Below are positions 9,782 to 60,605 of a stretch of DNA of 64,000 nucleotides, piece after piece (position 1 is the first letter of the stretch; every line of letters starts with the position of its first letter). The notes under the pieces were generated by a model. It saw only the letters and a list, made by a program, of their open reading frames with translations, ran no database searches and had not been told where the DNA came from. The DNA comes from Eretmocerus hayati (taxonomy: Eukaryota; Arthropoda; Insecta; Hymenoptera; Aphelinidae). The translations under genes and the position numbers were made by a program. The DNA lies in contig CM056742.1 in assembly GCA_029851415.1 (NCBI GenBank), forward strand, positions 79,412,748 through 79,476,747. Direction: 5' to 3'.

Positions 9782-10042
9782 TGTAAGCGTGCATATAGCC
9801 CGAATAATGCATGCTTGCATGATTAGATTCTCATCACCTGATTTCGGGGATATTTGATCAAAATTATAATCTATCATATGTATATATCTATATATGGATT
9901 TATGAATAATCGAATATATAAAAGGGTATTCTCATGATAATCAACTCTGGGTTTCTATTTAACTTTGGTATACTATTCGCATCCTTCGATTAGTTTATTG
10001 ATAAGAATAATGAACCAAAATAATCATATCGCGCAAGCGATA
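9782..10042 (-). repeat. Gypsy 5' LTR (outer limit unknown)
   Basis: The plus-strand sequence starts TGTAAGCG, i.e. the LTR ends CGCTTACA in the element's direction. It is AT-rich with many TATATA words. The outer end is unknown because no second LTR copy is in the window; sequence up to the giant palindrome at 10043 may or may not belong to it. Confidence 0.5.
9915..9926 (+). promoter_or_regulatory. TATA-box-like site facing the giant palindrome
   Basis: TATATAAAAGGG on the plus strand, about 120 bp before the palindrome. It fits a core promoter TATA box. The LTR it sits in belongs to a minus-strand element, so a plus-strand promoter would read into the palindrome. Activity is inference; AT-rich DNA gives such matches easily. 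Confidence 0.3.
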
Positions 10043-13000
10043 CACTATCTTTTCAAAATCTCAACTTTGATAGAAAATCCGCTTCCATCGAATTCATCAG
10101 CTATCGGGATGATTCAAACGGGCTTCTCTTCGAAATTTCCTCAGCTACACGATGCGCGATGCCTTTTTTGTCCTAAACTCAATAGGGAGGGGTGGGGGGG
10201 GGCGTACAACGAAATTTTACCGAAACAAAACATACACGTGACGAGTCCCTCGTTCTACTGCCAACTTGAATATACTTGGAGTACATTCTAGGACCCTATA
10301 CTTGAATTTTGGGCCTGTCCCCGAACCTGGAAATCACTGCTATGAATTTTAAGAGCGATTTTTAGCTAGGAACATGTTATAGACACTGTATATTCGACCA
10401 AAATCGTTGATTCTAAGTCGGTGAACGTTCTGCTGCCTCCTGAAAAACAATAGCGATGAATTCTGGGATTATTTCACGAGATTTTCAGCTAAGCCTCGAA
10501 TTCAGAAATTCCTGTTGACATTGATGCGATGCGGTTTGAGCTAAAAACGGTTGAAAATGCCTTACCGCCTGCTCAAAGTCATGGATTTTAGCTCGGATTT
10601 TCTACTACTGCCAGCTCAAAAACACTTGGAGTGCACTCTAAAATGACTGAACATGATTTTGACGTCAATCCCAAGTCTCAAACTTACTGCAGGATGATTT
10701 ATGACCGATAACAGGACAGGAAAGCTACAAAAAAATTGACGTTTGGGAAAAATCGATGAATTTTAGATGGAGTAAAACTCTACTGCCAACAAGTTAGGGC
10801 TTGACGTACATTCCAGTCCTCCCTCACAAAATTTCAAGCTCAAGCCCGAATCTGGGAATTGCTGCTGAGAGCTCTGAGATCGATTCTGAGCCGAAAGGGT
10901 GAGATGAATCGGGCAAATTTTTGCGTAATTATGAATCATAGGTTGGAAACCGCTCTACTGCCACATGAAAAATGGTCACATCACAATCCAGGGTTGAACA
11001 GCAAAATTTTAAGCCTAATCCGAGATCGGGGATAACTTCTGAGAGTACTGGGATCGATTCCAATACGGCATGTGCCAAGAGTGTGTCACTAGCGTTGCAA
11101 ATCATCCCGATTGACCGATTTTAGCTCGGAATTCCTATTGCTGCCAGCTTAGAAATACTTGGAGTATACTCTGTGATCACTCGGCAAGATTTTGACACTG
11201 ATACCGAGTCCGAGAACTGCTGCAGTGAGATTGAGTGCCGGTATTGGGACGAAAAAGGCTCACCGATACGGCATTTTTGGCGCAAAATGATGATATTCGG
11301 GTGAATAAAAGAAGGACTGCCAACTGATCAACAATTGGAACCAATTCTAGATCTCACTCACAAAATTTCGCGCCCAATCTCACCCCCGAGAATCGCTGCT
11401 AAGAGCACTGAGATCAATCCTTATCCAGCAGCATTTCAGAAGGGTAGAGAGTTCTCGCATGATCGTGGATTATACGGCAGAAATCGTCCTACTGCCACCT
11501 GAACAGCAATCGAGAATCATTTTGGGATCATTTGACGTGATTTTGAACAGAACCTCGATTCTTTATATATCTGCTGAGAGCTTTGAGATCGATTCTGAGG
11601 CAGAAATTGCGAAGTGGCACTAGGAATGAGCCAGATCTGATGATTCTAACTCCCAATAAGTACTACTGCCAACCCAAGAATACATACAGTGAAATCTAGA
11701 ATCATAGACGGGAATTTCTAGGCGAATCCTGCATCTGATAATTGCTGCAGACAAATTTCAGATGCATATTGAGCTCAGTATTGTCGTGAATTACAGTCGA
11801 TCTGACGAGGGATAGTTGAATTTTTTTCTTCAATTCTACTACTGCCAAGGTAAGTACCATTCCATCTCGTTACCAGTCTTTTGGACTTGTAACGAGATGG
11901 AATGGTATGAGTGAATATTTTGAGCCCGGTGTCATGCCCCCGAATCACTGCAGTGTGAACTGCAATCAAGATTGAGCCGAAATCATCGGAAATCCGTGCG
12001 GATCCCACGGAGAATGACGAGTTTTAGGAGGAAAACCATATTGCCAGTGAATACCATTTGCCAGTGAATTTTTTGGGCACATTCCCGTGTCTCAAAACTA
12101 CTGCAGTGCGATCTGAGAACAGTATTTGGGCCAGAGTACTCGCAAATCAGCGCGGGTCATATAAAAGAAGATGGACTCTAGGGCGTAAATCCTACTCCTG
12201 CCAACTTGAGAATGAATTCAGGACATTTTTAGTATAGCTGCGGGTATTTTTGGCCCCATCCTGTGTCTGGCGATAACTGCAGTGCGATCTGCGATCGGTA
12301 TTGGGCCCAGAATTGTGGGAAACTTCTGCGGATCCTACAGAAAATGGCGATTTCTAGGAGGTAAATCGTACTACTGCCAATTTCATCAGAAATCCAATAC
12401 ATTTTTGAATCGACTAGAAACATTTTAAGCCGAGCCTCGTCGCTCAGAATCAATGCAGTGCGATCTAAAACCCGAATTGGGCACTGAAACGTTGGAAATT
12501 CATAAGGATTCTACGGGAAATGATGGGGTTCAGGATGGAAATCGTAATACTGCCAAACCGCGAGCGATCCCACCGTATTCCATGTTTGTCAGTCACTACC
12601 TAGGGCCCGTTCCCATGGCTCAGAGTTACTGCAGTGCGATCTGAGATCGGTATTGGGCCCAGAATCATCGGAAATGATCACAAATCGTATTCAGAATCAT
12701 GAATCCTAGGGGGTAAATCCTATCCCTGCCAACTCAATGAGGAATCCAGTTGATTTTGGGATTGAATAGGAATATTTTGAGCTCAGTCCGTCACTCAGAT
12801 CCACTGCATTGCGATGTAAAACCAGTATTGGGCCCCGGATCGTCGGAAATCGGTGCGAATCCCACGGATAATGAACAATCTTAGGACGGTAACCGTACTC
12901 TTGCGACCCTTAAAAGCGACTCAGCACATTTTGAATTAGAATAGGGATATTTTGGGCCCAGTCCCGTCACTCAGATCCACTGTAGTGCGATCTGCGATCG

Positions 13001-15240
13001 GTATTGGGCCCAGAATTGTCGGAAACTCCTGCGAATCCTACAGAAAATGACGATTCCTAGGGGACGAATCGTACAACTGCCAACTGGATGATGAATCCAG
13101 TACAATCCGGGATTGACAAGGAATACTCTGGGCCCGGTCCCATGTCTCAGAGTTACTGCAGTGCGATCTGAGATCGGTATTGGTCCCAGATTCATCGAAA
13201 ATGATCACAAATCGTATTCAGAATCATGAATTCTAGGGGGTAAATCCTATTCCTGCCAACTCAATGAGGAATTCAGTTGATCTTGGGATCGAATAGGAAC
13301 ATTTTGAATCCAGTCCCGTCACTCGGATCCACTGCAGTGCGATCTCCGATCAGTATTGGGCCCAGAATCGTCGGAAACTTCTGCGGATCCTACAGAAAAT
13401 GACGATTTCTAGGGGGTGAATCGAACCACTGCCAACTGGATATTGAACTCAGTACATTTTGGGATTGACTGAAAATATTCTGGGCCCAAGCCCGTCACTC
13501 AGATCCACTGCAGTGCGATCTGAGATCGGTATTGGGCCCAGAATAATCGAAAATGATCACAAATCGTATTCAGAATCATGGATTCTAGGGGGTAAATCCT
13601 ATTCCTGCCAACTCAATGAGGAATCCAGTTGATCTGGGGATCAAATAGGAATATTTTGAATCCAGTCCCGTCACTCAGATCCAATGCAGTGCGAGCTCCG
13701 ATCGGTATTGGGCCGAGAACCGTCGAAAACTTCTGCGGATCTTACAGAAAATGACGATTCCTAGGGGGTGAATCGATTCACTGCCAACTGGATAATGAAC
13801 TCAGTACATTTTGGGATTGACTGAAAATATTTTGGGCCCAAGCCGGTCTCTCAGATCCACAGCAGTGCGATCTGAGATCGATATTGGGCCCAGAATCGTC
13901 GAAAACTTCCGCGGATCCTACAGAGAATGACGATTTCGAGGGGGTGAATCGAACCACTGCCAACTGGATAATGAACTCAGTACATTTTGAGATTGACTGA
14001 AGATATTTTGGGCCCAAGCCCGTCACTCAGATCCACTGCAGAGCGATCTGAGGTCGGTATTGGGCCCAGAATCATCAAAAATGATCACAAATCGTATTCA
14101 GAATCATGAATTCTAGGGGGTAAATCCTATTCCTGCCAACTCAATGGGGAATCCAATTGATTTTGGGATCGAATAGGAATATTTTGAGCTCAGTCCCGTC
14201 ACTCAGTTCCACTGCAGTGCGATGTAAAACCAGTGTTGGGTCCCGGATCGTCGGAAATCGGTGCGGATCCCAAGGATAATGAACAATCTTAGGACGGTAA
14301 CCGGACTCCTGCGACCCTTGAGAGCGACCCAGCACATTTTGAATTAGAAGAGAAAATTTTTGGGCCCAGTCCCGTCACTCCGATCCACTGTAGTGCAATC
14401 TGCGATCGGTATTGGGCCCAGAATCGTCGGAAACTCCTGCGAATCCTACAGAAAATGACGATTCCTAGAGGACGAATCGTACTACTGCCAAATGGATGAT
14501 GAATCCAGTACATTCCGGGATTGACAAGGAATGTTTTGGGCCCGGTCCCATGTCTCAGAGTTACTGCAGTGCGATCTGAGATCGGTATTGGGACCAAAAT
14601 CATCGGAAATGATCACAAATCGTATTCAGAATCATGAATTCTAGGAGGTAAATCCTATTCCTGACAACTCAATGAGGAATCCAGTTGATCTTGGGATCGG
14701 ATAGGAATATTTTGAGTCCAGTCTCGTCACTCAGATCCACTGCAGTGCGATGTAAAACCAGTATTGGGCCCCGGATCATTGGAAATCCGTGCGGATCCCA
14801 CGGAAAATGATCAATCTTAGCACGGAAATCGTATTACTGCGACCCTCAAAAGGGACCCGGCACATTTTGAATTAGAACAAAAATATTTTGGGCCCAGTCT
14901 CGTCATTCAGATCCACTGCAGTGCGATCTCCGATCGGTATTGGGCCCAGAATCGTCAAAAACTCCCGCGGATCCTACAGAAAATGACGATTTCGAGGGGG
15001 TGAATCGTACTTCTGCTAACTGAATGATGAATTCAGTACATTCGGGGATCGACAAGGAATATTTTGGACCCACTCTCGTGGCTCAGAGTCACTGCAGCGC
15101 GATCTGAGATCGGTATTGGGCTCAGAGTCGTCGAAAGTTCCTGCGGATTCCACTGAAGCATGATGACAATTTCGAGGAGGGATCGTAACCTTGTGAACAT
15201 GGTAATAATTCCATTTGTTCGAGGCACACGAGGAAATATG
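10043..15240 (+). repeat. Left arm: about 29 monomers of 175-176 bp
   Basis: Taking CTGCC as a phase marker, units begin at 10258, 10433, 10608, 10783, 10958, 11141, 11317, 11492, 11666, 11842 and so on to about 15013, nearly always 175-176 bp apart. The first 14 or so are strongly diverged from one another, sharing mainly the marker and the CTGCAGTGCGATC-like block. From about 12.7 kb inward three monomer types recur (CTCAATGAGGAATCCAG, TGCGACCCT, CTGGATGATGAATCC), several times in A-B-C order, a higher-order repeat of about 528 bp. One monomer near 12041 carries a local 18-bp duplication replacing sequence that the right arm still has. All short open frames here are incidental. Confidence 0.9.
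11855..11907. repeat. 19-bp-arm hairpin in left arm
   Basis: TACCATTCCATCTCGTTAC and its perfect reverse complement are separated by 15 bases. It sits right after the tenth monomer marker. The right arm has the same hairpin at the mirrored position with a slightly different loop. Confidence 0.9.
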
Positions 15241-16310
15241 TTTCGTTGAATACCTATTCAAAATATTGGCGGAGAGTCAATCGTCATTTGTGCCGAACTC
15301 GACAAATTCGATAGCCCCCGCAAGTCCATTTCAGATTGAAGTAAATTTGAATGGATGACTTCCTACTTTCAACTCTGAATGAGTCGTGAGTCATGTTTTA
15401 TCCCAGCCCTAAGTCGGGACTTCAATCTGAGAATCATTGCCAAGAGATCGCAAAACTCCCATGTATAGGAATGACAACTAAAGTTCATTTATCCATCATC
15501 ATCACATTTCAAACTCTAGATTTTTTTAAGTTTCTATCGTATCATGAAATTGAATGACAAGCGGTCCTATCCCTGTCATACAAAGAAATCCGAAAGACTT
15601 CCTTTCTCAATATTGAGTAAGATTAACTCACATACGAATCACTTAACTGATAACTGTACATTCCAAAATGTTCTCATAACTCGGGACATCATAGAATTAA
15701 TAGATCACCGATTATGTATTCGTAACAGAAAAATTCCGCAACGCAACGATTCGGTAAGCAATACACATCCTCATTGATTGAATAATCACTGTCAATGGAA
15801 AAATTTCTCAAGCGTACATGAAATTGTTGACTAGGAAGGTAACCAATTAACTGTGTGATACTTCATGAGTATGTACTCATTCAGTATCATCAACTGTATC
15901 ATTGAACAAAAAAGAACCTTAATGAGAAGATCAGATAAGTTTGATCCACATACTAATAACTCAATGATCGTGCATTTTCTGTGGGAAAGTAATGTGATAT
16001 ACAAAATACTCCACGAATATCAACAGATTCGATGATTTGACGCCCTCGTAGGCCTCATAATGGAATTTCTCTGTCTCGTCTGGGGGAACAGAAAAGCAAG
16101 AGGAATGAGCAATTTTGTCAGGTGTTGCCGGGATCGAGATTCAGTAGGTCCAAACTTTTGTTAATCAACGACATCTTCAGAGGAAACAGACGACCTGAGA
16201 CTTCAGCAATACCCACTCTACTGTTTCTGCATTCTCATTGACATACAAATCTTGGACTCGTGATCATCACCTGATATTCATACGTATTTTCATAGTTCCA
16301 TTCCACTTTT
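15241..16310. other. Spacer at the centre of the giant palindrome
   Basis: About 1.07 kb of AT-richer single-copy sequence between the arms. I see no monomers and no recognisable domain; the longest open frame (15544-15777, 77 residues) has no familiar motif. It would form the loop of a hairpin transcript, or the core of a foldback element. Confidence 0.6.
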
Positions 16311-19300
16311 GAATCTCATGCAAGAGTGAATTTCAAATCGATTCACCCCCTAGAAATCGTCATTCCCTGTAGGATCCGCAGAAGTTTTCGACGATTCTGG
16401 GCCCAATACCGATCTCAGATCGCACTGCAGTGAGTCTCAGCCACGGGACTAGGCCCAAAATACTTTTAGTCAATCCCAGAATGTACTGGATTCATCATCC
16501 AGTTAGGAGTAGTACGATTCGCCCCCTAGAAATCGTCATTTTCTGTAGGATCCGCAGGAGTTTTCGATGATTCTGGGCCCGATACCGATCACAGATCGCA
16601 CTGCAGTTGATCTGAGTGACGTGACTGGGCCCAAAATATTTTCATTCGATCCCAAAAAGTACTGAATTTATTACCGAGTTGGCAGTAGTACGATTCACCC
16701 CCTAGAAATCGTCATTTTCTTTAGGATCCGCAGGAGTTTTCGACGATTCTGGGCCCAATACCGATCTCAGATCGCACTGCAGTGGATCTGAATGACGGGA
16801 CTGAGCTCAAAATAATCCTAATCCATCTCAAAATCAACTGGAACCCTTATCTATTTGGCAGGAGTACGATCCACCCTTCAGAAATCGTCATTTTCTGTAG
16901 GATTCGCAGAAGTTTCCGACGATTCTGGGCCGAATACCGATCCCAGATCACACTGCAGTGGATCTGAGTGACGTGACTGGGCCCAAAATATTCCACTTCT
17001 AATTCAAAAAGTGCTGGGTCGCTTTTGAGGGTCGCAGTAGTACGATTTCCGTCCTAAGATTGATCATTTTCCGTGGGATCCGCACGGATTTCCGACGATC
17101 CGGGGCATAATACAGGTTTTACATCGCACTGCAAATGATCTGAGTGACGGGATTGGGCTCAGAATATTCCTATTTGATCCCGACATCAACTGAATTCCTC
17201 ATTGAGTTGGCAGGGATAGGATTTACCCCCTAGGATTCATGATTCTGAATACGATTTGTGATCATTTCCGATGATTCTGGGCCCAATACCGATCTCAGAT
17301 CGCACTGCAGTAACTCTGAGCCATGGGAACGGGCCCTAGGTAGTGACTGACAAACATGGAATACGGTGGGATCGCTCGCGGTTTGGCAGGATTACGATTT
17401 CCATTCTGAACCCCATCATGTCCCGTGGAAACCACACGAATTTCCAACGTTTCAGGTCCCAATTCGGGCTTTAAATCGCACTGCAGTGATACTGAGCGAC
17501 GGGGCTCGGCTTAAATTGTTTCTAGTCGATTCAAGAATGTATTGGATTTCTGATGAAATTGGCAGTAGTACGATTTACCTCCTAGAAATCGCCATTTTCT
17601 GTAGGATCCGCAGAAGTTTCCCACAATTCTGGGCCCAATACCGATCGCAGATCGCACTGCAGTTATCGCCAGACACAGCATGGGGCCAAAAATACCCGCA
17701 GCTATACTAAAAATGTCCTGAATCGATTCTCAAGTTGGCAGGAGTAGGATTTACGCCCTAGAGTCCATCTCCTTTTATATGACCCGCGCTGATTTGCGAG
17801 TACTCTGGCCCAAATATTGTTCTCAGATCGCACTGCAGTAGTTTTGAGACACGGGAATGTGCCCAAAAAATTCACTGGCAAATTCGGAACTCGATAAGAT
17901 CGTTCTCGAGTTGGCAGTAGTATGGTTTTCCTCCTAAAACTCGTCATTCTCCGTGGGATCCGCACGGATTTCCGATGATTTCGGCTCAATCTTGATTGCA
18001 GATCACACTGCAGTGATTCGGGGGCATGACACCGGGCTCAAAATATTCACTTATACCATTCCATCTCGTTACAAGGCCAAAAGACTTGTAACGAGATGGA
18101 ATGGTACTTATCTTGACAGTAGTAGAATTGGAGAAAAAAATTCAACTATCCCTCGTCAGATCGACTGTAATTCACGACAATACTGAGCTCAATATGCATC
18201 TGAAATTTGTCTGCAGCAATTTTCAGATGCAGGATTTGCCTAGAAATTCCCGTCTATGATTCTAGATTTCACTGTATGTATTCTTGGGTTGGCAGTAGTA
18301 CTTATTGGGAGTTAGAATCATCAGATCTGGCTCATTCCTAGTGCCACTTCGCAATTTCTGCCTCAGAATCGATCTCAAAGCTCTCAGCAGATATATAAAG
18401 AATCGAGGTTCTGTTCAAAATCACGTCAAATGATCCCAAAATGATTCTCGATTGCTGTTCAGGTGGCAAAAGGACGATTTCTGCCCTACATCCACGATCA
18501 AGCGAGAATTCTCTACCCTTCTGAAATGCTGCTGGATAAGGATTGATCTCAGTGCTCTTAGCAGCGATTCTCGGGGGTGAGATTGGGCGGGAAATTTTGT
18601 GAGTGAGATCTAGAATTGGTTCCAATTGTTGATTAGTTGGCAGTCCTTCTTTTGTTCACCTGAATATCATCATTTTGCGCCAGAAATGCCGTATCTGTGA
18701 GCCTTTTTCGACCCAATACGGGCACTCAATCTCACTGCAGCAGTTCTCGGACTCGGTATCAGTGTCAAAATCTTGCCGAGTGATCACAGAGTATACTCCA
18801 AGTATTCCTAAGCTGGCAGCAATAGGAATTCCGAGCTAAAATCGGTCAATCGGGATGATTTGCAACGCTAGTGACACACTCTTGGCACATGCCGTATTGG
18901 AATCGATCCCAGTACTCTCAGAAGTTATCCCCAGATCTCGGATTAGGCTTAAAATTTTGCTGTTCAACCCTGGATTGTGATGTGACCATTTTTCATGTGG
19001 CAGTAGAGCGGTTTCCAACCTATGATTCATAATTACGCAAAAATTTGCCCGATTCATCTCACGCTTTTGGCTCAGAATCGATCTCAGAGCTCTCAGCAGC
19101 AATTCCCAGATTCGGGCTTGAGCTTGGAATTTTGTGAGGGAGGACTGGAATGTACGTCAAGCCTTAACTTGTTGGCAGTAGAGTTTCACTCCATCGAAAA
19201 TTCATCGTTTTTTCCCAAACGTCAATTTTTTTGTAGCTTTTCTGTCCTGTTATCGGTCATAAATCATCCTGCAGTAAGTTTGAGACTCGGGATTGACGTC

Positions 19301-19938
19301 AAAATCATGTTCAGTCACTTTAGAGTGCACTCCAAGTGTTTTTAAGCTGGCAGTAGTAGAAAATCCGAGCTAAAATCCATGACTTTGATCAGGCGGTAAG
19401 GCATTTTCAACCGTTTTTAGCTCAAACCGCATCGCATCAATGTCAACAGGAATTTCTGAATTCGAGGTTTAGCTGAAAATCACGTGAAATACTCCCAGAA
19501 TTCATCGCTATTGTTTTTCAGGAGGCAGCAGAACGTTCACCGACTTAGAATCAACGATTTTGGTCGAATATACAGTGTCTATAACATGTTCCTAGCTAAA
19601 AATCGCTCTTAAAATCTATAGCAGTGATTTCCAGATTCGAGGACAGGCCCAAAATTCAACTATAGGGTCCTGAAATGTACCCCAAGTATATTCAAGTTGG
19701 CAGTAGAACGAGGGACTCGTCACGTGTATGTTTTGTTTCGGTGAAATTTCGTTGCTTTTGGGGGGGCGGGGGAGTTCATCGCCCCCCACCCCTCCCCATT
19801 GAGTTTAGGACAAAAAAGGCATCGCGCATCGTGTAGCTGAGGAAATTTCGAAGAGAAGCCCGTTTGAATCATCCCGATAGCTGATGAAGCCGATTGAAGC
19901 AGATTTACTAGCAAAGTTGAGATTTTGAAAAGATAGTG
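16311..19938 (-). repeat. Right arm: about 20 inverted monomers
   Basis: The phase marker appears as its reverse complement (TTGGCAG) near 16503, 16679, 16855, 17031, 17206, 17382, 17558, 17734, 17911, 18115, 18290, 18465, 18640, 18813, 18998, 19172, 19350, 19524 and 19698. The outer 17 pair one-to-one and in order with the outer 17 of the left arm. For example, the unit with GATCGCTCGCGGTTTGGCAG at about 17370 mirrors the left one at about 12550 with only a few differences in over 100 bp. The left arm's extra monomers all lie in its homogeneous inner zone. Confidence 0.9.
18054..18106. repeat. 19-bp-arm hairpin in right arm
   Basis: Same stem as the left-arm hairpin at 11855-11907, at the mirrored monomer, with a changed loop. 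Its presence in both arms shows it predates the palindrome or has been kept in step by conversion. Confidence 0.9.
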
Positions 19939-20421
19939 CGATGGCCCGCGTTCATTCTTCCTCGCAAATCGCATCGCATCTCCTCGCGCTTACATATATA
20001 TATTTCATTGGTCTCCGCGCGCGTGACCTTCCGCAATCGCGATCCGTCGTAAGCTAAAAGTGTGGTTCCTCTCTCTGGCAGCTCTCCGCCGTTTTCTCCC
20101 TCTTTTCCTCAAAACTCTCGCCTAAAGTGTCATCGTTTGTGTGTCGTGTTCGCACGACGTGATGGTCAATTTGCACCGTCACAAGAAAATCATAATTCTA
20201 AGAAACTTAGATCATTTGAGACATTTGTCATAAAAGTGGGAGATCGAAAGTATAATTTACAATCTCAAATTAAATTTTCCGAAACATAGTGAAACGTATA
20301 TCCAGAAAAATCCTAATCATGATTATTGAAAGCTCTTGTGGCATCGAAAGGATATCAGTGTCTATATATATTTATCTATTCATTTGATTTTTTGGAGAAG
20401 TCAAGCACGAAGCTCAGTTAC

Positions 20422-24564: not shown

Positions 24565-26700
24565 GTATTGTGGGAATTCGAAAGCTGGGGAATAACGCAC
24601 TCCCTAATAGGTATAGATCTACGGTATCGATGGCGTCTACTGCTGTCTACTTTCCACATCAACTCCGTCAATCGGCTAATCATTCTAAAATAGGTCAATG
24701 CGAGATCGACGTGAGTCCATACAGATTATTGTGAGTCTCAACCACAGTGTCGATGGTCAAAGTTTACTTGAGAGTGAGTAATAGCGAAGTTTATGATGAG
24801 AGTGTAAAATAGCAAAGCCTGTCGCGAGTAGAGCGGTGTTAGTTGTACTTTTTGCTGTGTTCGTGGGCTCAGTGTTCTTGTGTTAGTGCATGTATGTGCA
24901 GCCGTGCGTACGTGCCCCCGTTTTTCAATGCGCGATTCAGCTGTAAGGGGCGCCCTTAAGCAACTTGGACATAGCGAATACTCCCAAGGTGATCTCGATC
25001 GCCTCTCACCAATTATTTCGTAAATCAAGATAGCTTTTGCTGTAGACGTCCAATATACATTGTTTTGTTCTCTTTTTCCAACAACTTCTCGATAATTTCC
25101 TCTTTTTCACTCGTAATAGAGTACTTCTCTTCCTCTTATCTGTGTAACTATACTAAGTCATAGGGCTGTATATTCCACAAGAATTTCCACTTTCTCTCGC
25201 TGAGCTATACTTCATATGCAATTCTTGTACTTGACAAATCTTTAGATAATCCATCAATACTATTGTGAGTTCAAGTCTCGTTTATCCGTATCTCATTACG
25301 CATATACGTCCAGCACCTCTGTAATGACGTAATCTTTTGGAATTTTTGATAAAATACCTCATTATTTACCTGAATATGTAAGCTATTACTGACAAAATCT
25401 ATAACAGGGCTAAATATGGTCCCACCCCAAAGCCCCAATGAACAAAAAATCAATCAATCAAAATCAATTCTTTACTGAATTTTCATCGGTCTTCAGGCTT
25501 TTTCCGGGCGTGTATTGATCTTGAATTCCTCTATGGCAATTCCCGAACTTAGAATGGGGCGAATTGTATTCGATGCCTTTGAAATACGTTGAAACTGTTA
25601 TTGACCCGACAGCATATCAAGTTTGGAGCTGAAGCCCATCATCTCAAGTGGTATTTAGATCTGGAGGGACACTCCTCTCTCAAGAGAGAGCATGATCGAC
25701 CACGAACTCCCTCGGGGCGAATTTCCGAGCCGATTTGAGGCTTGGGAATTGATGGCGGAATGTATTGAAAGGACTCGGGGGGGGGGGGGGGGGGTCAGTA
25801 TAATCTCTCGGCTCATAATCCGCTACTCTCGAATAATATGCAGCTCTCATCAACTTTTGTGAGCTTAGAATCGATCGGGAAGCTGATTGCGTCGATTATC
25901 AGGCGTGAGGTTACTCTCGAGATATCATTTTGCACTCCTAGAATGTACTCCAAGTGATCGCATATCGTCTGTGAAAGGACTGACTCGCCATTCCGCAAAA
26001 TATTGATCTTCACCTTTTTTGAGTATAATGCCCCCTTCTACCCTTGTATCTGCAACAAAATCGGATGAGCACATCTACTCGTCCAGTCAATACCGGGCAA
26101 AATTCTTTTTGATTCATCCCGGTGGCTCAAAAATTCGATTCGGACGACTCCTTGACAGGACTAGGACTCGAAAACAATAGTGCGCTGGGGAGAATATTTT
26201 CGTGGCGTGTTTCGGAAGATAAAAGAGATCATGTGCATTTTTGGGCATGCAGTTTTGAACATTCGACTTTCCGAGACAGCTTTCGGGATAATTACGAGAA
26301 TTAACCTGCAAGAGGAGTCGAATTTAGATGCGACCTATTGAACTCACCCCAGTTCCGATTGAACTCATGCTGATTAGTTCCAATCTCGTCCAGTTCACTC
26401 ACAGACTGCAAAATCGAGATAGCATCAGGTTCATATATCTTTCCAGCATAATGAGGGGAATTAATGATCTCAAGAGCTATCATATGGCTTAAGTTGGAGT
26501 TGGAGACGCAGGAATATGCATGAGACTGCTGGACTCGTTAATTACTTCACCTATCGGGGACGGGTCTGCACAGAGAATTCTAGCGACCTCAGGACCGTAT
26601 GGGTATTCGAATGACCTCGGAATACGCTTCATGGGGCTAGTCCAACAGGATTTCCCACTCTGAGAGAAGAGTAACAATGCGATTTCCGGAGTCAAGGAGG
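24565..26700. other. Unassigned region with a possible LINE tail
   Basis: No gene recognised. At 25446-25470 CAATCAATCAAAATC follows CCCACCCCAAAGCCCC, resembling the (AATC)n tail context of the LINE at 2.5 kb; it may be a 3' LINE scrap. A G-run of about 14 occurs near 25780. A segment near 25935 (AGAATGTACTCCAAGTG) resembles a word in the outer monomers of the giant palindrome, too short to be sure. Confidence 0.3.
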
Positions 26701-32717: not shown

Positions 32718-33376
32718 TGCTGCGTATGGGACCTAGGTCCGGATGGCAGCAAGCCCAGGATGTGCTGCACGGATCATGCAGCATCACCAGCTGGCCATAA
32801 TCATTCGTGCTCGTTGTCATCTTCCTCTTCGTCGTCCTGAGAAGGACGCCCTGGCCTTGTCGTATACACCACGACAATCTCGCATACACGGTGGGACGCA
32901 GATCATGTGACATCCGGAGGGTGTGCGGGGGATGCAGCACGGGGTCTGCGGGCCCCGGTTGTTACCACCAGCATCCTCTGTTCGGCCCGTATCCAGGTGT
33001 ATCATAATAGGTACACCACGGATACATCATAGTGGTGGTCACGGCAAGGGGCATGTGCGCGGCCTTGTGTACCCGGGTAGCCCACCCGGGGCATAACTCT
33101 CCTACATTGTTGTCGTCGTCGTCGACCGCCGGCCTCCTACGGTGTGATGCCCGCGGCGATTAGCGGTGCGGGTGGGGTTGCCGGCCCGCAGGCATACTCG
33201 CGGTCGCGGCAACTCGATGTTTCGGCCGTCGTCATCGTCGCCTCGAGCAGCAGCACCTCAACAAAAAAAAAGAAGTATTCCCCGTGAATACTCGGTTTTG
33301 AGGCTGCTGCTCGAGGCATGACGAGAGAGTCACATTTATTCAAACCCCAAAAGGCTGTGACGATTATATCGTCACA
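32718..33376 (-). repeat. 660-bp direct repeat, copy 1 (candidate LTR)
   Basis: This stretch is repeated at 34787-35446 with only a handful of differences (for example ATCATTCG against ATCACTCG and CATAACTC against CATAATTC). Read on the minus strand each copy starts TGTGACGATATAATCGTCACA, an inverted-repeat start, and ends GCAGCA, so TG...CA as in LTRs. On that strand a purine-rich AAACAGGGGGTAA precedes copy 1, consistent with a polypurine tract. I could not find matching flanking target duplications, so segmental duplication remains possible. Confidence 0.6.
33240..33317. repeat. Compound hairpin in repeat copy 1
   Basis: GCCTCGAGCAGCAGC pairs with GCTGCTGCTCGAGGC; inside it CCTCAA pairs with TTGAGG and AGTATTC with GAATACT around a CCCGT-containing tip. 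The same hairpin is in copy 2 at 35309-35387. Confidence 0.85.
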
Positions 33377-34786: not shown

Positions 34787-35446
34787 TGCTGCGTATGGGA
34801 CCTAGGTCCGGATGGCAGCAAGCCCAGGATGTGCTGCACGGATCATGCAGCATCACCAGCTGGCCATAATCACTCGTGCTCGTTGTCATCTTCCTCTTCG
34901 TCGTCCTGAGAAGGACGCCCTGGCCTTGTCGTATACACCACGACAATCTCGCATACACGGTGGGACGCAGATCATGTGACATCCGGAGGGTGTGCGGGGG
35001 ATGCAGCACGGGGTCTGCGGGCCCCGGTTGTTACCACCAGCATCCTCTGTTCGGCCCGTATCCAGGTGTACCATAATAGGTACACCACGGATACATCATA
35101 GTGGTGGTCACGGCAAGGGGCATGTGCGCGGCCTTGTGTACCCGGGTAGCCCACCCGGGGCATAATTCTCCTACATTGTTGTCGTCGTCGTCGACCGCCG
35201 GCCTCCTACGGTGTGATGCCCGCGGCGATTAGCGGTGCGGGTGGGGTTGCCGGCCCGCAGGCATACTCGCGGTCGCGGCAACTCGATGTCTCGGCCGTCG
35301 TCATCGTCGCCTCGAGCAGCAGCACCTCAACAAAAAAAAAAGAAGTATTCCCCGTGAATACTCGGTTTTGAGGCTGCTGCTCGAGGCATGACGAGAGAGT
35401 CACATTTATTCAAACCCCAAAAGGCTGTGACGATTATATCGTCACA
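34787..35446 (-). repeat. 660-bp direct repeat, copy 2 (candidate LTR)
   Basis: Near-identical to copy 1, one base longer in an A-run. Read on the minus strand it would be the 5' LTR, ending GCAGCA and followed directly by TGGGTCGAGG, a TGG-starting primer-site-like word. Confidence 0.6.
35309..35387. repeat. Compound hairpin in repeat copy 2
   Basis: Same stem-loop as at 33240-33317, with one extra A in the loop. Confidence 0.85.
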
Positions 35447-43760: not shown

Positions 43761-44403
43761 GTTGTCGATACGTCTACTCAGATCTTCGGTTCGATTTAGA
43801 CTGCTGCTTCTGGATTGATCTTCCTCAGTCCCTCTATTCCTAGGCGCAACTGATCGGCCTCTAGCAGATCTCTCATATTCAACCCCAATGTTTTCATCCG
43901 GAAGAGCAATGAGAGTTTACCACTGACACGCGGCTCAAGTGGCCGAATCCCACCACTTTGAAAAGCCCGAGCAATGAGAGAAGGGCGAAACACGCACAAT
44001 ATCAGCGTAGAATCAAAATTTTTCATCAAGTTTCTCATTTTCTCATCTTTACTTTTCATTCCTTGCCATCAAAATCCTTTAGATGCATCCTCGGAACCAT
44101 ACGAGGCTCTAAAGGTGCATTGATCGAGAGTGGAGAAAAAATCCATTCTCGATTGATGCTAAAAATTCAGCAAAATTTGCCGACTTTAACTCGCAAAGAC
44201 CGATAAAATTACATCTTCATAATTTGAAATTCCCGCGAGTGATAAATACGATATCCGATCATATCGATCGAGTGTCAAAATTAATTACATATATCTCCGG
44301 CAGAAGGCCGAAGAGCTGCCGAAGTAAAAATGTTGAGAAATCGAATGGAAATAGCGGGTTAAATTGACCTTTCTCGCAAGCGCATAACGAAGATGAACTT
44401 TCG

Positions 44404-44410
44404 TATATAA
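44404..44410 (+). promoter_or_regulatory. TATA-like box in array unit 1
   Basis: TATATAA followed by GGGCG, on the plus strand, antisense to the Copia element. Repeated in unit 2 at 44932-44938. Promoter activity is inference. Confidence 0.3.
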
Positions 44411-44931
44411 GGGCGTTCAAACCATCGAACATTCGGCCACTTGAGCCGCGTGTCAGTGGTAAACTCTCATTGCTCTTCCACCACTTTGAAAAGCCCGAGC
44501 AATGAGAGAAGGGCGAAACACGCACAATATTAGCGTAGAATCAAAATTTTTCATCAAGTTTCTCATTTTCTCATCCTCACTTTTCATTCCTTTCCATCAA
44601 AATCCTTTAGATGCATCCTCGGAACCATACGAGGCTCAGAAGGTGCATTGATCGAGAGTGGAGAAAAAATCCATTCTCGATTGATGCTAAAAATTCAGCA
44701 AAATTTGCCGACTTTAACTCGCAAAGACCGATAAAATTACATCTTCATAATTTGAAATTCCCGCGAGTGATAAACACGATATCCGATCATATCGATCGAG
44801 TGTCAAAATTAATTACATATATCTCCGGCAGAAGGCCGAAGAGCTGCCAAAGTAAAAATGTTGAGAAATCAAATGGAAATAGCGGGTTAAATTGACCTTT
44901 CTCGCAAGCGCATAACGAAGATGAACTTTCG

Positions 44932-44938
44932 TATATAA
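44932..44938 (+). promoter_or_regulatory. TATA-like box in array unit 2
   Basis: Same context as 44404-44410 in the next 528-bp unit. Confidence 0.3.
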
Positions 44939-45348
44939 GGGCGTTCAAACCATCGAACAGTCGGCCACTTGAGCCGCGTGTCAGTGGTAAACTCTCATTG
45001 CTCTTCCACCACTTTGAAAAGCCCGAGCAATGAGAGAAGGGCGAAACACGCACAATATCAGCGTAGAATCAAAATTTTTCATCAAGTTTCTCATTTTCTC
45101 ATCTTCACTTTTCATTCCTTACCATCAAAATCCTTTAGATGCATCCTCGGAACCATACGAGGCTCTAAAGGTGCATTGATCGGGAGTGGAGAAAAAATCC
45201 ATTCTCGATTGATGCTAAAAATTCAGCGAAATTTGCCGACTTTAACTCGCAAAGACCGATAAAATTACATCTTCATAATTTGAAATTCCCGCGAGTGATA
45301 AATACGATATCCGATCATATCGATCGAGTGTCAAAATTAATTACATAA

Positions 45349-47040
45349 ATCATCGGAATCATCTGAAACAAAATCAAAAATATTTTCCAAATGTTCCTCT
45401 CAAGCCATGCTCCAAATATGCTCCTAGCTCAGTCTCTCTGACTCAGAGTGAACCGAGCTGGAACGAGTGAAAATACAGTTGGCCCGAACACAAGATCAAC
45501 CATATAATCACCCTAGTCATCACAACAAAACTTGGGAACACACCAGGTTTCTTAATGCAATGACCCATCCAGAAAGTCGGCGGATATCTCGAGATTTAAT
45601 ATGAAACTCAAACTCTGCTCGTAAATATGGCAAACTCAATGATTTATCTCCGGAGAAACTCAAATGAATATACACTCATGGAATTCCAAAATAAAACTCG
45701 ATGTACTCTTCTGAAAATAAAATTAGGGAGGGTATTAATTTGTTTCATGTACACACCTATGACAAACAATGCACCGTTGTCGATTGACAGAATGATTTCT
45801 CCATCGATTACTATCAAGTGCATTCTCTGACCCACATGGTCTATATTCAGATGATAGTCGCTCGTGACTTTGTACCAAAAGTCGGTGAAAAGGGTGGTAT
45901 CTAAACAGAAAAGATTTGTTTTCCCCATTATAGCTACACACCTCGGCTCTATTTTCATTATTTGTGTGAATACACATATTCACATATTTTGAATGCTCAA
46001 CTCTTATGGATCTCACTTTCCAGAGGAGCGTCATAGGGTGTCGATTCAATGTCATTCAATATTAATACAATTATTATGCCAAGTCATGTGTAATTATGGT
46101 GGGTTAAAATATCGCCTACATAAAGAGTCATAATCACGTAAAGTTTCAAGGCTGAAGTCAGTAAGATATTAATTAATTATTCATTTCTAAATGTCATCTG
46201 CTTGGCTGCCATATTCTCCATATACAGCTAACAATCTCGAGCTATGCCTAATTTAAGCCTAGAAAAGGTTTAGTATTTATTGCACGGCCGCAGCACACGG
46301 GAGTATTCACAACGAATAGCTAAACTGGACTATGCGACTACTAACTCGGCACTCTCGCGCGCCACGTTTGAATTTTCGTGCCGCGCGACAACTTACAGCG
46401 GTGCCAACATGAATGCACCTGGTTAGGGACCCTAGAATCTAGGGACCCTACAAATGGTGCGCGCGCATCCTCCAATGCCGCCCTAGGGACCCTACAAATG
46501 GTGCGCGCGCATCCTCCAATGCCGTCACCTACTTTCACCACCACCGCTGCTCGCGCGCCGCCGCGGCTCGCATCAAATATGGCGTCACTACAGCCAGCAC
46601 TCGAACAATGAAACGGCGTCTTCAATGACGCGCAATTCACATATACACACTCACACAAGCAGTATCTCGATCCAATACTCACTCGCGGAAGACGGCTTAC
46701 AATCGAATAATCTGACGCGAATCAGCTGACGAGTTCACCCGATCTCACATGTGCTGCGCGCGCGCAATTCAAAAACATAAACAAACTTTGCTCACCCGTA
46801 CCTCTGTTACTGCGGGCCAGGTCGACCTCGTTCCCGCTGCTCTCAGCATCACTGTTGCTGCGTGCCGACATCTTGAAATACTATATGCACAGCTAGTGCA
46901 GCGATACTTATATATATATATATATACTGCCCGTCAATGACTTTTTGAAACGTCGCCGGCGCTTGCTTTAGCGTGGGTGACGCGACGCACAACTTTCATT
47001 CAACAAAACTTTCACAGATCGAAAAACACTTTTCCCTGAA
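45349..47040. other. Rest of the Copia leader, unassigned
   Basis: No gene recognised. Short minus-strand frames near 45.6-46.05 kb overlap each other and have no familiar motif. 46.3-46.9 kb is GC-rich and may hold another insertion. A (TA)n run lies near 46908-46926. Confidence 0.4.
46429..46528. repeat. 44-bp direct repeats related to MITE termini
   Basis: TAGGGACCCTACAAATGG followed by GCGCGCGCATCCTCC occurs twice, 44 bp apart, after a partial TAGGGACCCTAG. ACAAATGG followed by GCGCGCGC closely parallels the ends of the 225-bp MITE at 3106-3330. Confidence 0.7.
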
Positions 47041-48983: not shown

Positions 48984-48991
48984 GGGGGGGG

Positions 48992-50996
48992 GGGTCTGGA
49001 GAAAATCCCTAAAAATCTTCCTCCATTATTCCTATCTTTGAATACAAATCTATAGAAATTTTATTTTGGACTTTTCCGAAGCTCCCTAGGTGTCCTAGGG
49101 CCCAATATACGCTCATTTTGTGACCCTTTACAAGCCTATTTTCGAAAAATCATAGCTCCGACTAGATTCGATACTTTTCGACGTACTGGGGCGCATTTTC
49201 TTTGTTGAGACTGGTACTTTTGAGGAAAAAATTACTCGACACCAATAATTTAGCCTATTAACGTCTAAAAGCTTTCTACTGGGAGCGTATTTTAGCGATT
49301 TTCGGGCCTTCCTCCAAGTGACTTAGCTCCTACTAGAAAATCGATAATTGACTCTTACCGGTATTAATTTTGGGGGTCTTGGAAAAACCTACAATTTGAC
49401 CACTGGTAAAAGTCGATTATCGTAATTTTCATAGGAGTTATAGTCAATACAAGTTGAGCAGTTTTGTAAGAATGACAAACTTTGAGCTCAATTTGAAAGA
49501 CCCGTTTTTTCGTCATCTAACCTACGAGAATATGTTCTAAAAGACAAGTTTCATTGGTTAGAACTACGATCTGGGTGGTTTTTTTGATTCCTGATTTCTG
49601 GGAGACTGTTCGAAGTACCCTAATCAGACTTTTTGCTAAAAATTACCTCATAAATATGGCTCGCATATGCTTCCATCTGAACTGATGGTCATCAATATGT
49701 GTAGAATGACTCTCCAAAGCAGACCTAAATAGTGTGGGAACTTTCGGAAGCGAGCCTCGAGCTAGCTGCGAGCAGGAGGTTTCATTTTACGAGTTGAAAA
49801 TGGGAATTATTTTGTCTATTTGGACGCGGGTGAGTGCGAGTGGTATTCCACTCATTCTAGCCCACAAATGAGATGAGCGGCTAAAATAGGAATTCGAACA
49901 TTGTTTCCCGACTCATGACAATCTAAACACGATTCTTATGTTAGATTGGCTCTTAGATGTCATCTAATGCTTCAACGTCGGTGAACCCGGTTGTCCAGGT
50001 TTTGGTGGCTCTAGAGCAAAATGGCCATGATTCAGAGCCAAACGGACCACGAGATCGTGTTTAGATGGTCATTTTGAGTCAGAAAAACAGGTTTGTGTCC
50101 CTATTTTAGCTACTCGTCTCATTTGATAGCTAGAATGAGTGACATCCCTCCCACGCTCGCCTGCTCTTGAATATACTGAATATTGCCAATTTGGAAACGT
50201 TGGTTTGAATATCCAGCTCGTTTCTGGCTTGGGGCTTGCCTCTGAAAGTTTCCGCACATATTTGAGGCTACTTTGCGGAGTAATTCCACACATATTGATG
50301 CCCATTAGTTCAGATAGAAGCATATGCAAGCCATATTTATGAGGTAATTTTTAGCAAAAAGTCAAAAAAGGGTACATTGAACAGTCTACCAAATATCAGG
50401 AACCAAGAAAGCCACCCAGATCATTGTTCTGACCAATAGTACTTGTCTTCGAGATCATATTCTCACAGGTGAGACGATGAAGAAACAAAAACGGTTTTTT
50501 CAAATCGAGCTCAAGGTTTGTCATTCTTACGAAACTGCTCAATCCGTATCTACTGTAACTCCTATGAAGAGTACGACAATCGACATGTACTAGTAGTGAA
50601 GTTGTAGGTTTTCCCGAGCTCTTCAAAATGATTACCGGTAGAAGTCAATTATCACTTTTCTAGAAGGAACTAGGTCACTTGGAAGCAAGCCCAAAAATCG
50701 CTCAAATATGCTCTCAGTAGAAATCTTTTCGAAGTTGCTAGGCTGAATTATCGATATCGGGCAATTCTTTTCTCAAAAGTACTAGTTTCGACAAAGAAAA
50801 TGCACCGAAGTACGTCGAACAATATTGAGTCTAGTCGGGGCTATGATTTTGCGAAAACAGGCTCGAAAAGGGTAAATTTGGGCCTTTTTGGCCCTAGGGC
50901 CTACGGGGAGCTTCGAAAAAGTCCAAAAGACATTTTTCTGTACCATTCAAAGTTAGAACTGATGGAAAAAAATTTTTAGGGGTTTCTTCCAGACCC
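48992..50996. mobile_element. 2-kb foldback element with 944-bp arms
   Basis: GGGTCTGGAGAAAATCCCTA at the left is mirrored by the right end (TTAGGGGTTTCTTCCAGACCC), and the match continues to about 49935 and 50053, leaving a centre of about 117 bp. Arms are equal in length within the accuracy of reading and differ by scattered substitutions. A G-run precedes the left end. No coding capacity. Its target duplication is not clear. It is a non-autonomous foldback or large MITE of unknown superfamily. Confidence 0.85.
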
Positions 50997-51644
50997 TCCT
51001 CATACACACTGCAATTGCAAGACAAAGGAGCGTCAAGCAGTTGTGAGATCTCCCTCACAACTCATTTGCAATCATACGCCCATAGCTTAATTGAGTCTCA
51101 TTCTTCTAGAGCTTTGTGAGTAGATTATGAACTTGAAAAAATATGAAACCATTCCCACTTTTGTATTCAACAGAGGAATTTTGAGAGACAGAAATGAAGA
51201 TGTCAAGGATTATGGGTAACGTAAGAAACGTACATAAGTGTGTACGGGGGTAGTGTAAGATGTGTGTGGTACCCCTCCTGAACAGCAGAGTACTCTATAT
51301 TTGGCGTCATGCCTCAATGCTCGCTTTCCAAGGATGTGGAGACAATAGAATGATTTTGATAGCTATTACGGGAATTATGCTGTTATAAATGTGTATTCAG
51401 TATTCAATTGAAATTTCATCCCAGTGTTGTTCTACATCTTGCCATGAAAACATAACTTGGACAACTGAATGTTCAAGAGAAAATGATTGCATTCTGTAGA
51501 ACCATGTATGAGTGATCTGATTACTTCTCTTGATGAAGAATTATATTCTCGTGACTATAGATATTGCTTGCAGATGCTGGAAATCACACTGTGACCTGAG
51601 TGAATTGAGGAATCGGATCTTTTTGGGATTAATGTGTAGCAGTC
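50997..51644. other. Region upstream of the BEN-domain gene
   Basis: No open gene seen. It should contain the promoter and 5' UTR of the BEN gene, but I find no convincing core promoter. TGTGTAG at 51633-51639 could be a splice acceptor for a 5' untranslated exon. Confidence 0.35.
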
Positions 51645-54455: not shown

Positions 54456-55362
54456 ACAGCCCCACAAAAGAATGTTCTGACCTAACTCCCAAATCATGCC
54501 ACCTTTATGTTTTTGGGGTCGCTGAACCCGAATCCGAGGTCGATTTGGTCCCAGCATAGCAAAGTTCTGACATAACCTCAAAAATTCGTGATTCTTCGAG
54601 AATGCTTGGAGCTGGTGATCAAACCATACTTTGTTTTGCACTTACTCCATGTTTTTGGGGTCGCTGAATCCAAATCCGAGGTCGATTTGGTCCCAGCATA
54701 ACAAAGTTCTGACATAACCCCCAAAATCCGTGGTTTCAACAAGTGTAAGACAAAGTATGGTTTTCGTCACCAGCTCCAAGCATTCTCAACAAATCACGGA
54801 TTTTTGAGGTTATGTCAGAACTTTGCAATGTTGGGGCCAAATGAACCTAGGATTCGAATTCAGCAACCCCAAAGACATGGAGTAAACGTAACACAAAGAA
54901 TGGTTAGACCTCCAGCTCCAAGCACTCTCGAAAAATCCCTGACTTTTAAGGTTATGTCAGGACTTTGCAATGCTGGGACCAAATCAACCTTGGATTCGGA
55001 TTCAGCGACCCCAAAAACATGGAGTAAGTGCAAAACCAAGTATGGTTTGATCACCAGCTCCAAGCGTTCTCGAAGAATCACGAATTTTTGAGGTTATGTC
55101 AGAACTTCGCTGTGCTGTGACTAAATGGACTTCGGATTTGGATTCAGCGACCCCAGAAACCTGTAGTCACTCCATAAAACTGTATTTAGTATGGTTTGGT
55201 TATGATCTCCGATCGATTTTGTGAAATTGTGATTTTTTGAGGTTATGTCAAAATCTCGACGTGCTTGGACCAAACTGACCTCGGATTCTGGTTCAGCGAC
55301 CCCGAAAACATAATGGTAGCATGGTTTGGATGTTAGGTCAGAACTTTTTTTTGTGGGGCTGT
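54456..55362. mobile_element. 907-bp foldback element of inverted ~143-bp monomers
   Basis: ACAGCCCCACAAAA at the left and its complement at the right frame the element; ATTATC and ATTATG lie just outside, an imperfect 5-6-bp target duplication. Inside, monomers with GAGGTTATGTCAGAACTT and GGTCGCTGAATCC words run inverted to about 54740 and then direct, with GAGGTTATGTC at 54806, 54949, 55090 and 55239 (spacing about 143-149 bp). The arms are therefore tandem arrays that switch polarity, as in the giant palindrome, but with unrelated sequence. No coding capacity. Confidence 0.85.
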
Positions 55363-59600: not shown

Positions 59601-59652
59601 CCGATTCTAATATGGAACATAGCGGGACTGAGAGATATCAACACAGATACCT

Positions 59653-60601
59653 CACGGTGGTCCTGAACCAAGTCTATCCTCCGCTGACGACAGCAAGTGG
59701 GATTCTTGTTAGATATGGTTTGGGACATCTGTGGGATCACAACCTACTAAGAGTCAAAATCGCCACTTGGGCCGTTTGTTGAAACCTTTTTCACCCTCAA
59801 AAACTCGAAAGGAACGCATTTTATCGAAAAATATGTAGAGCAACTTTTTGTAGAACTTGAAACGATGAACAAAAAAGGTCTCCACACATTTTTCCATATA
59901 AGACCTCCTGTTCCTGTAATAAACGTATTTCGTCTGAGACTCGTATTTTATCTGTCATTTTTCACGGTTTCGACCCCATAACTCGAAACGAACACATTTC
60001 ATCAAAAAATATGTACATTAAATATTTGTAGATCTTCAAAGGATAAACAAGAAATATATGTACATATTCTTTTATGTAAGGCCTTCTGTTTCTAATACGA
60101 GTCTCAGGCGGAAATACGTTTATTACGGAAACGGACGACCTTGTATCGAAAAATGTGTTGAGACCTTTTTGATTTATTTTTCAAAGATCTACAAGAAATT
60201 ACTGTACACTTTTTTCGATAAAATGCGTTCCCTTTGAGTTATGGGGTCGAAACCGTGAAAAATGACACATAAAATACGAGTCTCAGACGAAATACGTTTA
60301 TTACAGGAACAGGAGGTCTTATATGGAAAAATGTGTGGAGACCTTTTTTGTTCATCGTTTCAAGTTCTACAAAAAGTTGCTCTACATATTTTTCGATAAA
60401 ATGTGTCCCTTTCGAGTTTTTGAGGGTGAAAAAGGGAAAAACATCGAAAAAACACGTTTTTTCGACTTTTTCAAAAAAACGGCCCAAGTGGCGATTTTGA
60501 TTCTTACTAGGTTGTGATCCCACAGATGTACCGAACCATATCCAACAAGAATCCTACTTGCTGTCGTCAGCGGAGGATAGACTTGGTTCAGGACCACCGT
60601 G
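59653..60601. mobile_element. 949-bp palindromic element with Transib-like ends
   Basis: CACGGTGGTCCTGAACCAAG at the left is exactly mirrored at the right; the match continues for several hundred bases. ACCT is duplicated at 59649-59652 and 60602-60605. CACGGTG is the terminal heptamer type of Transib transposons (related to V(D)J signals), though Transib duplications are normally 5 bp, so the class is tentative. Inside, units with AACTCGAAASGAAC recur about 178 bp apart in each arm and reverse at the centre. It splits the LINE endonuclease. Confidence 0.8.
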
Positions 60602-60605
60602 ACCT

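Follow-up and report, generated by a model that had tools for sequence, protein, structure and literature searches.

A probable gene-less foldback Transib with arrays of ~176-bp units in its inverted ends in the genome of Eretmocerus hayati

The palindrome at positions 10043 to 19938 of the window (the whole 64,000-nucleotide stretch of Eretmocerus hayati contig CM056742.1 analysed here) is, with a probability of about 0.94, a gene-less and non-autonomous foldback copy of a Transib transposon, whose terminal inverted repeats (TIRs) have grown by amplification of a ~176-bp unit. The termini, the target-site duplications, the family of copies, their common middle and the transposase pieces in members with the same ends were all seen directly.

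Architecture of the palindrome

The ends of the palindrome are exact, at window positions 10043 and 19938, and the two arms (10043-13553 against 19938-16385) are 92.5% identical over 3,559 alignment columns. A palindrome of opposed ~176-bp arrays, as described in an earlier note on this DNA, is thus real. Taken in steps of 200 alignment columns, identity between the arms is 91.5-99.5% in each of the first 14, and the differences comprise 109 transitions, 72 transversions and indels. Both arms open with CACTATCTTTTCAAAATCTCAACTTTG. Inverted array ends account for 8.7 of the 9.9 kb, which gives the element the shape of a foldback, and the same is true of other copies. The features, in window coordinates, are as follows.

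10038-10042, no strand: left target-site duplication CGATA, read from the flank; 4 of 5 letters match the right copy
10043-10246, forward strand: left terminal piece, starting CACTATCTTTTC (heptamer CACTATC); its terminus is matched 194 times in the genome
10247-15187, forward strand: left arm, 28 tandem ~176-bp units and a short partial unit
10255-10265, forward strand: first unit box, CTACTGCCAAC; the position recurs at ~175-176 bp through both arms
15188-16338, forward strand: non-coding middle domain of 1,151 bp, found in other members at 81-95% identity
16339-19714, reverse strand: right arm, 19 oppositely oriented units and a partial unit
19715-19938, reverse strand: right terminal piece, ending GAAAAGATAGTG
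19939-19943, no strand: right target-site duplication CGATG, read from the flank
25789-26182, reverse strand, outside the element: remnant of an old, related terminus, CACTATTGTTTTC..., roughly one unit in length, with outer flank CGCTG

The 28 units of the left arm and 19 of the right, each of ~176 bp, come within one of the ~29 and ~20 estimated before. Steps from unit to unit span 173-202 bp and are 174-176 bp in 40 of 45 cases, the left unit L11 having been placed by spacing only. Terminal pieces of 204 bp (left) and 224 bp (right) lie outside the units. The single-copy spacer that had been proposed is present, but measures 1,151 bp rather than ~1.07 kb. Chance periodicity is excluded, because identity at a lag of 175 bp in the outer left arm (0.36) is far above that at other lags (mean 0.255, SD 0.015, lags 20-599). 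By the same measure the outer 2 kb, which were missed by a tandem-repeat finder, are also periodic.

The earlier note was also correct that the outer units diverge strongly from each other and match their mirror partners in order. Mean identity is 49.7% among left units L01-L10 (67.1% among L12-L28), whereas the best left matches of right units R01-R14 are L01-L14 respectively, at 84-100% identity. R15 and R16 tie with other left units, and the register is gone from R17 inward. Given that the inner units have no mirror register, the lengths of the arms differ through the number of inner units. Within the left arm, L15-L17 and L23-L25 are 92-94% identical, which hints at turnover by segments.

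Rfam and tRNA scans of the window gave nothing, and a Pfam search with seven window ORFs returned only two matches, both under the curated cut-off. There was no match to 10043-18000 in phage and plasmid collections, and one pattern scan of viral contigs also gave no match.

Copies across the host genome

A search of the host genome (692 Mb, 17 contigs) with the left end and the spacer, proposed earlier as a way to find other copies, returned both at many loci. The first 501 bp have at least 40 hits (40 scored among 351 candidates), of which 35 start at base 1 and 38 within base 3. Allowing up to two mismatches, the 27-base terminus has 97 + 97 = 194 matches, and the reversed control has 0 + 0. 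Among the 100 termini listed there are 15 adjacent opposed pairs less than 15 kb apart, including the window copy; 14 of these span 6.7-11.2 kb and the remaining pair spans 474 bp. Arm lengths and inner units vary both between the arms of a copy and between copies.

The middle domain as a query found at least 44 pieces (40 scored of 78 candidates), namely that of the window and 43 others at 81-95% identity. It is present in 14 of the 20 stretches fetched, at full length in ten, and absent from six of the stretches read (L010, L011, L012, L021, L026 and L027). We considered the middle domain as a possible gene, and rejected this. Its 127-codon ORF is open in only 3 of 11 copies; it has one stop in 4 of 11 and is shifted with at least two stops in another 4 of 11, among them the window copy. 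Codon-position deviation is 0.044/0.029/0.044 in this ORF and 0.029/0.033/0.033 in the rest of the middle, so that the third position of the ORF varies no more than the first.

An old relic of a related terminus lies in the window itself and is further evidence for a family. The relic terminus at 26182 reads leftward, has 19 consecutive bases and the end CACTAT in common with the element, and is found by nhmmer at E-values of 7.9e-11 (arm model) and 1.1e-11 (unit model).

Other arrangements of these termini also occur in the genome. A mini copy of 474 bp (C4:65518789-65519262) consists of two termini and little more; it has the flanks CTACG/CGACG and is MITE-like. Opposed family termini 26-61 kb apart (C2:65101697-65162283, C1:89927772-89960648 and C4:72353220-72379730), the first with a transposase match inside it, suggest nested insertions, or else composite elements of very large size. 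The interior of L013, with zinc-finger and hAT pieces, was considered as an autonomous copy, and is more likely flanking DNA of a truncated copy.

Target-site duplications

A 5-bp duplication is present at all 19 members for which both flanks were read (ten plus nine, the nine including the 474-bp mini element). In 14 it is exact, for instance CGACG, CGTCG, CGGCG, CGCCG, GACCG and CCTCA, and in five it matches at 4 of 5 letters, these being the window copy (CGATA/CGATG) and four others. The target preference of Transibs is CGNCG, which in one listing stands on at least one side at 13 of 18 sites. Because the target is so strongly preferred, the flanks of different members frequently agree: exactly in 11% of pairings and at 4 or more of 5 letters in 49%, so that only the exact duplications carry weight. 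In 20,000 re-pairings of the flanks the number of exact duplications reached 9 at most and never 14. A longer duplication had been guessed from the window copy alone and was dropped when other copies were read.

Transposase and membership in the Transibs

Transibs have a terminus consensus of CACWATG, and their transposases are relatives of the antibody-gene recombinase RAG1. A 5-bp target-site duplication is described as typical of Transibs (PMC4411706, in the extract available), as is the combination of this duplication with a CAC heptamer (PMC8355894, likewise in extract). The window copy has CACTATC at both ends. Duplications of 5 bp together with termini starting in CAC led us to suspect a Transib, and we then tested this on members with the same ends.

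Three gene-bearing members with the same termini contain a piece of a Transib transposase. Two of them, C2:73818174-73827137 and C1:124428299-124436626, have a gene remnant with an array on the left and a reversed array on the right. The third, C4:47614323-47623796, has a gene remnant, both termini and a reversed array on the right, its left arm lying outside the stretch read. The middle domain of the window copy is absent from all six stretches read of these three members. A 103-aa piece from the first (L049, 501-809) matches residues 339-436 of HzTransib (PDB 6pqn) with an E-value of 5.1e-18; the other C-terminal piece alone had no PDB match. Pfam recognised neither piece as a transposase, and a search of the host genome with the Pfam RAG1 profile gave nothing; as the profile also gave nothing in all 14 control genomes, this result is uninformative. 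The pieces recognised inside members are C-terminal only, some of them with stops, and in the gene-bearing stretches read no complete gene was found between such arms. The earlier statement that there is no transposase or other gene therefore applies to the window copy and not to its relatives, which carry transposase pieces within the termini of the family.

The association between this transposase and the termini extends beyond these members. Used as a query, the same 103-aa piece has at least 142 matching places in the genome (150 scored of 185 candidates), 68 of which were taken into a test of proximity to termini. A facing terminus lay within 13 kb of 10 of the 24 matches at 81% identity or more, of 2 of the 14 at 65-80% and of none of the 30 below 58%, where chance would give ~0.2% each. 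Many other Transib-type transposase matches are scattered through the genome, such as those at C2:75069846 and C4:31199715, and distant Transib-like copies, at most ~35% identical, include open frames of more than 600 codons.

A sister element at C1:123571132-123582102 (10,971 bp, duplication CGCCG/CGCCG) has CACTATA at both ends and arms with 3.5-kb arrays that are 96.4% identical over 3,455 bp. The strongest lag in its left array is 177 bp, and between its arms lies a transposase remnant, one ORF of which matches 6pqn at E 2.1e-13. A more distant relative, L074, is 54% identical in the transposase piece and has a recognisable terminus 1.6 kb from the gene, reading CACATTG at that one end by eye. 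No arrays or long inverted repeat were found across 9.8 kb at L074, so the array ends may have arisen after the split from its lineage, as this one locus would weakly suggest.

The unit box and the role of the arrays

The units carry a short box with the core CTGCC, which stands at the same unit position in 37 of the 47 units (22 of the 28 on the left, 15 of the 19 on the right) and is missing in the other 10; the exact box TACTGCCA is found in only 18 of the 47. Matches to the first unit box with at most one mismatch number 20 in the window, and all of them are inside the element. In a fixed 175-bp frame over the ten outer left units the box is the most conserved part, at 76 of 80 letters compared with a shifted maximum of 50, a control biased in the box's favour because the units had been anchored on it. 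Across 20 arms of different copies (22 minus L010_a and L013_s, which hold inserted or damaged sequence), variation is 0.021 per column in the box and 0.039 elsewhere; 3 of 156 shifted controls are as low as the box, and two other unit positions vary equally little.

We suspect that the CTGCC-core box is a candidate secondary binding site for the transposase. Galileo-G has four direct repeats, two of which contain THAP sites that have been tested (PMC3688188, in extract), a precedent for docking sites borne on repeats. With the box exact in only 18 and its core in 37 of 47 units, we consider docking and passive arrays about equally likely.

If the arrays are passive, a reading that we place slightly below even odds, the element would be the same Transib foldback, its arms having grown by slippage and unequal exchange, and the box would reflect the ancestry of the repeats rather than transposase binding. 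The variable arm lengths and inner units, the ten units in which the core is absent, and the modest two-fold conservation of the box across copies, equalled at two other unit positions, are all as expected for passive arrays. They explain less well why CTGCC is retained in 37 of 47 units when the outer units are otherwise only ~50% alike, and why, over the 20 arms, few 8-base windows vary as little as the box; the tested sites in Galileo-G repeats also count against them.

If the arrays do serve for docking, one can tentatively envisage a Transib lineage with a docking site in most of its 176-bp units. In this scenario, which we regard as possible rather than probable, a dozen or more sites per end would recruit the RAG1-like transposase and compensate for the cost of being 10 kb long, while the order of the outer units would be frozen, the inner units would turn over and the arms would be re-copied from each other. 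Such a docking-array lineage would, to our knowledge, be the first RAG1-superfamily transposon with kilobase repeat ends.

Alternative origins of the palindrome

A foldback of the Mutator or P superfamily, such as Tetris or Galileo, would have the same shape, with long inverted ends and internal tandem repeats. However, the duplications are of 5 bp, and not of the 7-8 bp expected for the P superfamily and Galileo or the 8-10 bp expected for the Mutator superfamily and Tetris. The transposase pieces inside members with these ends are of Transib type, and the stretches read show no transposase gene of the P or Mutator superfamily between such termini. We therefore consider this origin very improbable.

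It is similarly hard to credit that the palindrome is an inverted block of host satellite that has become a hairpin locus, as the earlier note offered for an alternative. The monomers are indeed nucleosome-sized, and transcription of the long inverted arms could give a hairpin, perhaps with small RNAs as a secondary product, but dispersed copies share the same arms, sharp ends and middle domain at many loci, with the duplications that are signatures of insertion. The other proposal made there, a foldback element, has stood up, given the 194 genomic matches to its sharp terminus, the 5-bp target-site duplications and the shared middle domain. Artificial palindromes occur in some assemblies, but an assembly or amplification artefact is the least plausible origin of all, given the transitions, transversions and indels between the aligned arms and the recurrence of opposed termini at similar spacing in 14 of the 15 close pairs.

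Proposed mechanism

For a Transib foldback, we propose that tandem amplification of the ~176-bp unit would have grown the TIRs to 5.1 and 3.6 kb around the 1.15-kb non-coding middle. The gene-less copy would move in trans, being cut at its CACTATC termini by a Transib transposase produced elsewhere and inserted with a 5-bp stagger, mostly at CGNCG. Unequal exchange may then lose and gain inner units, and conversion between the arms may keep those of one copy alike.

In a tree of 22 arm ends, the two arms are sisters in five of the six usable copies (the window copy, L009, L014, L025 and L028), L023 being the exception. An insertion in one arm led us to leave out L010, whose two ends pair on a long branch. 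Identity between the arms of one copy is 93.8-97.9% (six copies), whereas between copies the mean is 90.5% and the highest value 97.4%, so that arms from different copies can be as similar as the two arms of one copy. Sister arms would fit conversion after insertion, or a mode of transposition in which one arm is copied from the other.

Comparison with known elements

Among known foldbacks, FB elements of Drosophila melanogaster also have long, internally repetitive inverted ends, and differ in their short-period repeats and 9-bp duplications. The element resembles Galileo, a P-superfamily transposon of Drosophila, in its foldback shape, in the repeats of its ends and in that some Galileo repeats hold transposase sites. 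Galileo differs, in the extracts available, by its shorter ends (at most ~1.26 kb), which hold no more than three or four repeats, its 7-bp duplications and its P-type transposase (PMC3573991, PMC3688188). Tetris of Drosophila virilis, for which the Mutator superfamily was proposed, is likewise a gene-less foldback with a non-coding middle and has end repeats of ~220 bp. Its ends reach at most 1,735 bp, its duplications are of 8-10 bp, and its repeats also occur in longer satellite-like arrays (PMC4079207, in extract). Galileo is assigned to the P superfamily and most other foldbacks to Mutator, with cited exceptions, in the parts of these sources available (PMC4079207, PMC3573991, PMC3688188). 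The likeness to Drosophila FB and Galileo drawn earlier thus holds for shape and fails for kinship, the superfamily being Transib.

With HzTransib (PDB 6pqn) and Transibs generally, the element shares the 5-bp duplication, the termini starting with CAC and, in gene-bearing members, a transposase piece of the HzTransib family. HzTransib is 3,518 bp long with TIRs that are called long (PMC1852546, in extract), whereas here 14 of the 15 listed pairs of termini lie 6.7-11.2 kb apart, and the ends of the full-size copies read are tandem arrays of kilobase length.

Other superfamilies already provide foldbacks whose ends are filled with repeats (Galileo, Tetris, FB), and what would be new here is the foldback shape in a Transib. 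The earlier suggestion of an undescribed element agrees with our searches of the open literature, which turned up no Transib foldback; an entry in Repbase or Dfam is possible. Where the open papers found name both Transib and foldback, the terms sit, in the extracts available, in unrelated tables or reference lists. A Transib foldback with gene-bearing, array-armed relatives would indicate that the foldback shape arises repeatedly. The family offers stages that can be compared (the 474-bp mini copy, gene-less copies, gene-bearing copies and a sister family), and it is a natural case in which a RAG1-type transposase faces many candidate sites per end, so that the purpose of repetitive ends becomes testable.

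Other repeats in the window

The window contains several smaller repeat structures. A ~2-kb palindrome at 48989-50999, with arms ~76% identical and ends GGxGGGTCTGGA, is probably another inverted-repeat element. The smaller inverted structure at 54456-55362, which has a 142-bp tandem array and the ends ACAGCCCCACAAAA, is perhaps a second foldback-like element with repeats. A 950-bp palindrome (83%) at 59652-60602 has the same 46 outermost bases, TCACGGTGGTCCTGAACC..., at its two ends. Direct repeats of ~660 bp at 32718-33376 and 34787-35446, 99% identical and with a 60-bp tandem array between them, are perhaps the long terminal repeats of a short element. Overlapping direct repeats with a spacing of 528 bp and 98% identity, at 43950-45351, adjoin a copia-like polyprotein.
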